Source of the DNA: Capitulum mitella
Lineage: Eukaryota; Arthropoda; Thecostraca; Pollicipedomorpha; Pollicipedidae
DNA: 64,000 bases
Direction: 5' to 3'
NCBI GenBank assembly: GCA_030062745.1
Contig: CP099847.1
Location: 24,104,923 to 24,168,922, forward strand
A model generated the notes under the pieces. It worked only from the letters and a program-made list of their open reading frames with translations, did not search any database and had not been told where the DNA came from. Position numbers and translations under genes: made by a program. Shown here one piece after another: positions 40,101 to 43,100 of the stretch (position 1 is the first letter of the stretch; each line of letters begins with the position of its first letter).

Positions 40101-43100
40101 CTTGAATTTTACGTCGCGACGAATCGATCAACGTCTGTTACGACCAAATGGGACGTCTATTTCTCGAGATATCATGGGCGGGGCGAGTAAGCCCCCCCCC
40201 CCGGAATGTGTTATACGGGGATGTGTCCTAGCGTTATGAGCACGGGAATAGCGTTGATAGGACCTTGCATGGCTTTGGTCGATTTCTTTTACCACAATGT
40301 GCACAAATGATGCGCTGTTTGGTTCTGAGAAAAGATGACTGCACCGCGTGGTTATGGAACTCTACGCCGAAGGAAAAGGTGTGGGCGTTTAACGCACTTC
40401 CCCCATGACGGCAACACAAATGTCCAAAAGAAAGTCATCAGCGCTGCTTCATTTATCAACCCGTCCATTGGCTATCAAACGTGACTGTTCACGCGTGACT
40501 GCGGTTCGTGCGGTTCGGTCCCTCGTTGCTCCTGTTTCAAGTTTCCGCCGCCAGATGTCACTGGGCTACGGCTCTCGGGCTCGGTCGCTCTGGGCTGGGC
40601 AGTCCGCAGACGCCGCCGGCCCCGCTGGAACGTCCCGTAAACAGAACGATCTCGCTGCTGCACCTCGCCAAGGGTTCGGACGTCGCCATGCGTGCTGTGT
40701 GTGCTCGGCGGGCAGCGCCGGTTCTGGTGCTGTTGGCGCTTACCGCCGCGAGCGCTGACCCGTGCCAGGAGGTGAGGACCCCTTTGTGTCCCGACGTCCG
40801 CCGGACGCGGCTGCCCAACTCGCTCAACCACACGACGGCGGAGGACGCGCTGATGGAGGTCGCGCAGTTCCATCCGCTGGCGGCCGTGGGCTGCAGCGGC
40901 AGCCTGGTGCCATTCCTGTGCGCGCTGTACCTGCCGCCGTGCACGGCCGGGCCGGGGCCGGCGCTGCTGCCCTGCCGCCAGCTCTGCCTGGACAGCCGCG
41001 AGGGATGCGAGCCCCTGATGAGGCGCTTCGGCTTCACGTGGCCGTTCAGCTGCGACCGGTTCCCCGCCGACGGCGAGAGCTGCGTATCGGAGAGCGGCGT
41101 TAAACGCGCCACGCCGGCGCCGACGGAGCCGCCTGCGGCGTTGCCGACGGAACCGCCTGCGGAGCCGTCTGCGGAACCGCCTGCGGAGCCGTCTGCGGAA
41201 CCGCCTGCGGAGCCGCCGGCGGAGCCGTCGACGGAGCCGCCGGCGCCCGTGTGCCGGTGCGGAGGTCGGGACGCGGCGGCGGCGGTGTCGCATTCCGAAG
41301 TGGTCGCGCTGGAGGGCGTGTTCGCCAGGTTTCTGGAGCGCTCGCTGAGCCTCTCCCGGCTGCAGGAGAGCACTCTGAAGCTGCAGCACGAGAAGACACG
41401 ACTGGAGATCGAGTTGCTGCGCCGGCAGCTGGCGGCCGCCGGCGCGGGCCTCAACTGAGGCCAGGCGCCGTGGACCATGTCGGACAGACTGGGCGGCGGC
41501 GGCGGCGCCTCTTGGTGGTGTGTTATGCTGCGGTTCATTTTTGTTCTGTTCTGTGCTGATGCTCGTACACCGTGGTTAAACCTCAGTCCTGTTTGTAAAC
41601 TGGTGACGAGCTTGGACTGGAACGACTACGAAGTGGAACAGCCCGACTAATAATTAGCATCCGTTTAAAACGCCAACCGAAAAACTGCGACAAAAACTAG
41701 GATGGGACTGACGTAACCCTACGTCAAATCCACTAAATGATATTTTATCATAGGCTCTTTGACACACACAAGCCGATACCTGCCTGCATGAAATCAGTCC
41801 TGCCTCAAACCTGCCAAAGGGGCGCAGGCAGAACACTAAGCAACGCAAACACCCACACATTCAAGATCACTGACATCATCACTACACCGGACCTTTGTCC
41901 TAGGTGCAACACAAAAATGGAACTAACTTCTCTAGGTTACTCGTTCCCAACCCGACGTGGAAATCTTTCGGAAAGCAGTCACGAATCTTCTCAGTGTTCC
42001 ACCTCCTCCCTACCAGTCATTTGGGTCAAAAATAGGAAACGCCAAACGTACAAAAATTAGACGCAGATCTTTTGAACAAAATTCACGTCTTTTTCAAACA
42101 CAGCAATCAGCCAACCCAGCTTGTCCATGTGGATCAAGATCTGAAAACGTTATCGGCTTTATGTTGCACTTTCCCATTTGTCAAGCAGTTAGAACTAACT
42201 TGTTTAACTATATTTCGGTCTCACTACAACGCGGCTTATCAACACTCAGCTCGCCAGACAGATATACGTCTGTAGAGGGTAAATTTTGACACCATCAGTG
42301 GTCGTCTGGTTGCCGGGAATTGTCAGAGTTACATTTCAGAAGCTCAGCAACTCTCTCTCGGGACGCTGGACCATGTGTCTGAACACACAGCTGTGTGTCC
42401 TGAAATTCCCGAATACCTACCAGCGGCGGACATCATGCTGGTAATGAACTGCAGAAACAGTACCAAGATTTAAGGGTTTTAACGCTCTCTCTCTCTCTCT
42501 CTCTCTCTCTCTCTCTCTCTCTCTCTCTCTCTCTCTCTCTCTCTCTCTCTCTCTCTCTCTCTCTCTCTCTCTCTCTCTCTCTCTCTCTCTCGCACACACG
42601 CACGCACGCACGCACGCACGCATGCGTATGTGGCAAAGTGGTGTGAGGTCGCCTAGTTTCGACGTCATTTCGTAGACCTTCAAAACCGTTCTTTTCTCCA
42701 CTGAGTTTGGGCTTCTTCCGCAGCATTTTGACGAGGTACGGTATTACGTTTGGCTGCTAGACTGGATGTACTTGACTCGATGCTTGACTATGCTTGGCTG
42801 TGTACTTTGCTTGACAGCATGTAGGCTTTTGAAAGGTCGGTGGTCAGTTGGTCAAATGATGTCTCTGGACTTTGTTTATTTGTTCTTTTGCTTTAAGGGG
42901 TGCTCTAGCCGCAGAGGCCTATGAAATCTATGACCTTATGTGGCTTGAAAATGATGTTCAGCGTGTCATAAGATGATTTTTATCTATAACTTCAGTTGCA
43001 ACAACGATTTTTACCTTTTTCAATATCAGAATTTTAGTGTGCCGTAATGAAGCATCACTTAAAGGCACAAACAGTATTAGCGTGTCATAATGAAATCACT

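Follow-up and report, generated by a model that had tools for sequence, protein, structure and literature searches.

A secreted-type Frizzled cysteine-rich domain protein with a likely coiled-coil tail, and its second gene, in a barnacle genome

A 64,000-base stretch of barnacle DNA (C9:24104923-24168922; hereafter, the window) was found to encode an unusual protein of secreted layout, in which a Frizzled cysteine-rich domain (CRD) is joined through a proline-rich linker to a leucine-rich tail that is likely to form a coiled coil. The layout is no accident of the window locus, since it is repeated in a diverged second gene, the paralogue at C6:265775-266542, in the genome searched (16 contigs totalling 477,042,490 bases). 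The secreted layout, the single open frame, the class of the CRD, the second gene with its homologous tail, and the separate Frizzled receptor and sFRP-like genes are established. In our judgement, there is an even chance that the protein is a secreted, Frizzled-derived decoy that binds Wnt and is oligomerised by its coiled coil. A preliminary description of this DNA had pointed to an unusual secreted Frizzled-CRD protein with a coiled-coil tail. We confirmed that observation, with a frame of 256 amino acids at 40688-41458, and graded its interpretation as supported. The features are as follows, with positions counted from the first base of the window.

40545..40560, + strand: 16-base element common to the upstream regions of both genes, from exact copies and the upstream alignment.
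40688..41458, + strand: coding frame of 256 amino acids plus stop, a single open frame; the paralogue is alike in layout.
40688..40756, + strand: signal peptide, residues 1-23, from its hydrophobic stretch, with the cleavage place set by eye; the N-terminus aligns with that of the paralogue.
40763..41071, + strand: Frizzled CRD, residues 26-128, with the tenth cysteine at residue 132 (PF01392, E 9.2e-25).
41093..41248, + strand: Pro/Ala/Glu-rich linker, residues 136-187, from composition and a tandem repeat.
41252..41260, + strand: Cys-Arg-Cys, residues 189-191, not kept as CxC in the paralogue.
41291..41443, + strand: C-terminal helix, residues 202-252, from AlphaFold2; the coiled-coil score is best from about residue 229.

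Third-position GC was 0.95 across the CRD and 0.88 across the tail, and the three-base pattern weakened past the stop codon; the window tail therefore reads as coding. The length of the frame alone is weak coding evidence because antisense frames of 366 and 355 amino acids are likewise open in the GC-rich stretch around 40688-41458. The gene had been called intronless, which holds for the coding frame only, as the 5' untranslated region could still contain an intron. In the region of the signal peptide, 12 of 21 residues are identical to the N-terminus of the paralogue. Outside the signal peptide, no membrane-helix-like stretch was seen in the window protein other than one in the CRD core (residues 64-82). 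Beyond the ten cysteines of the CRD, the protein has cysteines at residues 5 (in the signal peptide), 189, and 191.

The preliminary description had also remarked that a netrin domain or membrane part was lacking, and this was borne out. Pfam gave no match to the Frizzled seven-pass region (7TM, PF01534) or the netrin domain (NTR, PF01759) within the window protein, nor at E 0.01 on the + strand over 41101-64000, read in three frames with stops as X. As far as the window shows, neither a larger receptor gene nor an sFRP gene appears to include this frame. A kinship with collagen XVIII or carboxypeptidase Z, raised earlier as a possible identity, was not found either: the protein had no other Pfam match, including none to a carboxypeptidase, and its CRD was 30% identical to a collagen XVIII reference. 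Relatives were also sought by pattern among prokaryote genomes (427 matches) and viral contigs (31 matches), and none of these was confirmed, as expected for an animal gene.

Several other genes were seen in the window. Nucleoside transporter exons (PF01733, E 3.1e-25) at about 62.8-63.8 kb (+) were the only family matched in the scan of 41101-64000. A beta-hexosaminidase lies in one long frame at 52640-54208 (-), with a GH20 match at E 3.6e-88 and the alpha and beta chains of beta-hexosaminidase as the nearest solved structures; elsewhere in the genome, four GH20 frames stand in a row at C7:29470037-29496349. A MoaC domain (18879-20042, -; E 6.8e-53) is preceded by a Pro-rich repeat, and a MoaA-like start was noticed by eye at about 28826-29320 (-), where Pfam had no match. 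Judging by these resemblances, the MoaC and MoaA-like stretches are perhaps a MOCS1 gene.

The CRD of the window protein scored 87.8 bits against PF01392, for which the curated cut-off is 32.1. All ten CRD cysteines that had been reported are in place, at residues 26, 34, 69, 78, 85, 96, 100, 107, 122, and 132. Compared with solved structures, the window CRD matched Frizzled-1, -7, and -2 best (112, 104, and 100 bits) with sFRP3 at 80, and the paralogue CRD gave 132, 131, and 127 bits for the same three receptors and 88 for sFRP3. A tree was built from 22 CRDs, namely 12 human references, that of the window, and nine of the 17 other CRD places in the genome, with partial and very divergent genome CRDs omitted. 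In this tree, the window gene and the paralogue formed one clade (100/99), which adjoined the CRDs of the genome's own two Fz1/2/7 receptors at weak support (83/49), and two further CRDs of the genome clustered with human SFRP1/2 (100/99). In a smaller tree, the window CRD fell in no starred group and had a long branch of 1.71. Both CRDs thus appear to be nearest Fz1/2/7 and apart from the genome's sFRP1/2/5-like CRDs, with weak support from the tree, and the scores and, weakly, the tree suggest descent from an Fz1/2/7 receptor.

The likely ligand contacts were compared at 11 positions that we take to line the Fz8 lipid groove and eight that we take to be second-site Wnt contacts. At the groove positions, the window CRD equalled FZD7 at 11 and FZD8 at nine, with several of the 11 common to other Frizzleds and sFRP1. 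At the second-site contacts, it equalled FZD8 at one and FZD7 at four, which counts against a Wnt decoy. The window CRD lacks the usual Frizzled N-glycosylation site and two residues of its loop, which the paralogue retains, and has an alternative NxT at residue 47.

The EPPA linker of the preliminary description proved to be a 52-residue stretch with 19 Pro, 11 Ala, and 9 Glu, encoded by a DNA tandem repeat of 12/24/36 bp at 41118-41245. It is acidic, with 2 Lys/Arg versus 9 Asp/Glu, and the tail is near neutral, with 10 versus 8. The CxC turn was likewise found in the window protein, at residues 189-191, but it is not conserved: the paralogue has no CxC and only a single Cys, at residue 201, closer to the helix.

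AlphaFold2, run as a one-sequence model, predicted a single helix over residues 202-252, with pLDDT of 93-96 over 231-250; in the same model, the CRD had low confidence, with block means of 32-76. For the tail, a Pfam search gave nothing up to E 10, and the solved structures offered no match below E 0.3. Coiled-coil potential was scored by a COILS-type method, and significance was taken from 1000 shuffles of the tail. The window tail reached P 0.96-0.97, best within residues 229-256, and was equalled by 40-43 of 1000 shuffles, so that the window gene on its own gives moderate support for a coiled coil. The paralogue tail scored higher, with P 1.0 at 21- and 28-residue windows (equalled by 12 and 11 of 1000 shuffles) and 0.99 at 14 (104 of 1000). 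Two heptad registers compete, and the top register differs between the two genes. At windows of 14, 21, and 28, the best register of the window gene gave 0.97, 0.96, and 0.96 there and 0.97, 1.0, and 1.0 in the paralogue; the best register of the paralogue gave 0.91, 0.75, and 0.06 when applied to the window gene. Leaving aside register and chain number, a coiled coil is likely in both genes on these scores, in agreement with the Leu-rich helical or coiled-coil tail first described. A dimer had been considered from an Asn at an 'a' place, and this was dropped since it is true in one of the two competing registers only.

The second gene was found with a PF01392 profile search of the genome, which gave 18 places including the window's own. 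Open frames were read at 15 of the 17 others; the two left out, C3:3735707 and C2:23048248, are short pieces in the vicinity of places that were read. The gene at C6:265775-266542 encodes 255 residues in one frame, with a signal peptide, a ten-Cys CRD, a Pro-rich linker, one Cys, and a Leu-rich tail. Identities between the two proteins were 67/112 in the CRD, 25/49 in the linker, and 26/53 in the tail. When the genome was searched with the last 75 residues of the window protein, the gene itself and the C6 gene were recovered (E 1.7e-8, 49% identity), followed by matches at E 0.012 and 0.46. Downstream of the paralogue, there was no match to 7TM or NTR at E 0.01 on its strand, in three frames, to C6:279998; a piece of a Na/K-ATPase beta chain was the only match there. 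Synteny was not seen in the 30 kb around the paralogue, where only the sense and antisense frames of the CRD gene matched among the 640 frames of the window.

The weaker tail matches lie elsewhere. That at E 0.012 (C2:4479592-4479795, -) belongs to a tail-like frame without a CRD match, C2:4479558-4479888 (-), and is absent from the 18 PF01392 places. This place is 77% identical to the window in a 69-base piece that surrounds the CxC and 74% identical in a 76-base piece, window 40132-40207, upstream of the gene; it may be a decayed third copy. The match at E 0.46 (C12:4170135) has two stops.

No stop interrupts either copy across the 249 codons aligned, and all gaps between the two are of whole codons; the first, second, and third codon positions differ at 93, 73, and 99 sites. 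Constraint was assessed by dealing the same substitutions to random sites (n=5000). The observed identity of the CRD was reached in 0 of 5000 trials and that of the linker in 245. In the tail, 25 of 47 residues are identical compared to a null mean of 20.9, a level reached in 237 of 5000 trials (160 for the helix core); the alignment was made on proteins and so leans towards identity. These data modestly support protein-level constraint on the tail. By NG86, the CRD has a dN/dS of 0.79 and the tail one of 0.63; these ratios say little because high GC3 squeezes dS.

Upstream of the start codons, the two genes share a 16-base element, CCGCCGCCAGATGTCA, which lies 143 bases before the start in the window and 123 bases before it in the paralogue (C6:265652-265667). 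It has eight exact copies in the 477 Mb genome, compared to none for the pattern read backwards; three of the eight form an array with 33-base spacing at C3:33131708-33131789. A short pyrimidine-rich stretch precedes the element in both aligned upstream regions. The element may belong to the promoter, or it may serve as the splice acceptor for an intron in the 5'UTR. The window copy holds an ATG that is out of frame with the coding frame, in a frame that spans 40405-40758. If the element is part of the mRNA, this ATG would open an overlapping upstream frame.

Apart from the two-gene family, the genome contains Frizzled receptors of the ordinary kind as well as sFRP-like genes. Ten CRD frames were scanned with Pfam, and six had PF01534 in the same frame; the four without it were the paralogue, two sFRP-like frames, and a divergent C12 frame. 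This last CRD (C12:9898403-9898720, -; E 2.6e-23) is the sole Pfam domain of its 199-aa frame and was placed ambiguously beside human FRZB in the 22-CRD tree (53/62). The exon-by-exon genome search, which can miss exons, gave a single NTR match (PF01759), on C14, and no NTR parts for the two sFRP-like genes. Among the PF01392 places, Frizzled-type genes are paired across chromosomes (C1/C10, C2/C3, C6/C11, and C8/C12): Fz1/2/7 on C11 and C6, Fz5/8 on C12 and C8, and sFRP-like CRDs on C1 and C10. By eye, a 7TM Frizzled on C2 has a similar frame at C3:3728004, and frames with an Fz-like and a kringle-like stretch are present on C1 and C10. Of the Fz4 type, one gene only was seen. An ancient whole-genome duplication in barnacles has been published, and the pairing fits with it (PMC11331182).

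In the mechanism that we propose, the CRD of an Fz1/2/7-type receptor would have been parted from its seven-pass region and attached, with the Pro-rich linker in between, to a short coiled coil, which would unite two or more chains, giving several CRDs per molecule. Wnt would be held by its palmitoleate in the CRD groove, and its access to Frizzled receptors would be reduced. What suggests a multivalent Wnt decoy is the combination, in one protein, of a coiled-coil helix and a long Pro-rich linker with a CRD of Fz1/2/7 type whose lipid groove looks intact. For the two-gene family, we infer expression, secretion, oligomers and their number, Wnt binding, and antagonism. Such a protein would be the natural counterpart of engineered Frizzled CRD-Fc traps, which are soluble, dimeric CRDs made by man.

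Work on Sfrp1 indicates that a CRD by itself does not have to trap Wnt or behave as an sFRP does. The netrin domain of Sfrp1 alone binds Wnt8. The Sfrp1 CRD binds Fz and, in a reporter assay, antagonises Wnt8 signalling; in vivo, it cannot reproduce the activity of the full molecule (PMC2542364). This result, together with the loss of the Asn-based dimer, lowered our confidence in the decoy to the even level given above. The same interaction of the Sfrp1 CRD with Fz receptors allows the window protein to be imagined as a Frizzled-receptor binder, CRD to CRD, that blocks or tunes signalling without binding Wnt. We regard this as quite improbable, since no sequence feature favours it and the groove positions are kept. 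The anatomy of the decoy would serve equally for a Wnt carrier or local agonist, in which the CRD, perhaps oligomeric, shields the Wnt lipid and transports or presents Wnt. A CRD-only splice form of Fz4 is described as raising or lowering Wnt signalling by context (PMC4669655). However, Pfam detected no additional binding domain in the window protein, and the acidic linker and near-neutral tail offer no clear heparan-binding part, leaving a carrier rather unlikely. A CRD retooled for some other ligand (a fatty acid, a sterol, or a matrix or cement component), with Wnt binding lost, could explain the long branch, the loop deletion of the window copy, and the poorly conserved second Wnt contact. 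It appears less likely still than a carrier, given that all 11 groove positions compared equal FZD7 and that the paralogue is nearer to Frizzled-1/7 than the window copy is.

Two further explanations concern the origin of the gene, and both are very improbable. The order of signal peptide, CRD, linker, and CxC matches that of Platynereis FzCRD-1, for which the loss of a netrin part with the CxC as its remnant has been proposed, and the window protein could likewise be a shortened sFRP (PMC4669655). Its CRD is, however, nearest Fz1/2/7, and the genome's two sFRP1/2/5-like CRDs join human SFRP1/2 instead (100/99). Given also the absence of the CxC from the paralogue and the predicted helical tail, the CxC as a netrin remnant was rejected. 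The gene could instead be a damaged or incomplete Frizzled receptor gene, or one alternative exon of such a gene, without its own protein product. A partial copy is easily made because in both Fz1/2/7 genes of the genome a single open frame covers the CRD plus roughly the first half of the 7TM. Against this, two diverged copies remain open from start codon to stop codon and have homologous tails, and no 7TM match lies downstream of either gene (on the + strand to the end of the window, and to C6:279998 for the paralogue).

Returning to the Wnt decoy, we tentatively suggest, as a possibility that we hold to be doubtful, that the two genes are lineage-specific coiled-coil Frizzled decoys, born from Fz1/2/7 and retained after the ancient barnacle genome duplication as an extra Wnt control besides sFRP1/2/5. 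If true, evolution would have arrived at the Fc-fusion design of engineers, a multivalent soluble Frizzled CRD, and secreted Wnt binders would have arisen in a second way, out of a Frizzled receptor instead of an sFRP. A compact natural Wnt trap would then be on offer. Because there are two diverged copies, whether groove, linker, or helix persists can be tested directly.

Secreted proteins with a CRD only are already described: three in Platynereis (FzCRD-1, -2, and -3) and one in Aplysia, proposed as Wnt modulators (PMC4669655). The nearest published protein among the matches listed is Platynereis dumerilii FzCRD-1, with 208 aa. Like the window protein, it has a signal peptide, a ten-Cys Frizzled CRD, a variable linker, a CxC, and no netrin or membrane part. 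Unlike the window protein, its CRD clusters with sFRP3/4, and the word 'coiled' occurs 0 times in the main text of the paper (PMC4669655). The layout of this group is thus similar, but the CxC is missing in the paralogue, and the comparison was made with the published description. The sFRP1/2/5 and sFRP3/4 proteins have in common with the two-gene family a secreted Frizzled CRD and the expected modulation of Wnt. They carry a C-terminal NTR, whereas the window gene and the paralogue give no NTR match and differ in CRD class. The sFRPs are reported to be missing from insects but to occur in a spider, a millipede, and an onychophoran (PMC6162966). Frizzled 1/2/7 receptors have the nearest CRD by bits and, weakly, by tree, but the two-gene family is without the 7TM and has a coiled-coil tail instead. 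The soluble Fz4 form also provides a soluble CRD, but it is a splice product that ends right after the CRD (PMC4669655). In titles and the starts of abstracts among the matches listed, a Frizzled CRD with a coiled-coil tail was not described. The two-gene family belongs with the known secreted Frizzled CRD proteins, among which its likely coiled-coil tail is a new variation.
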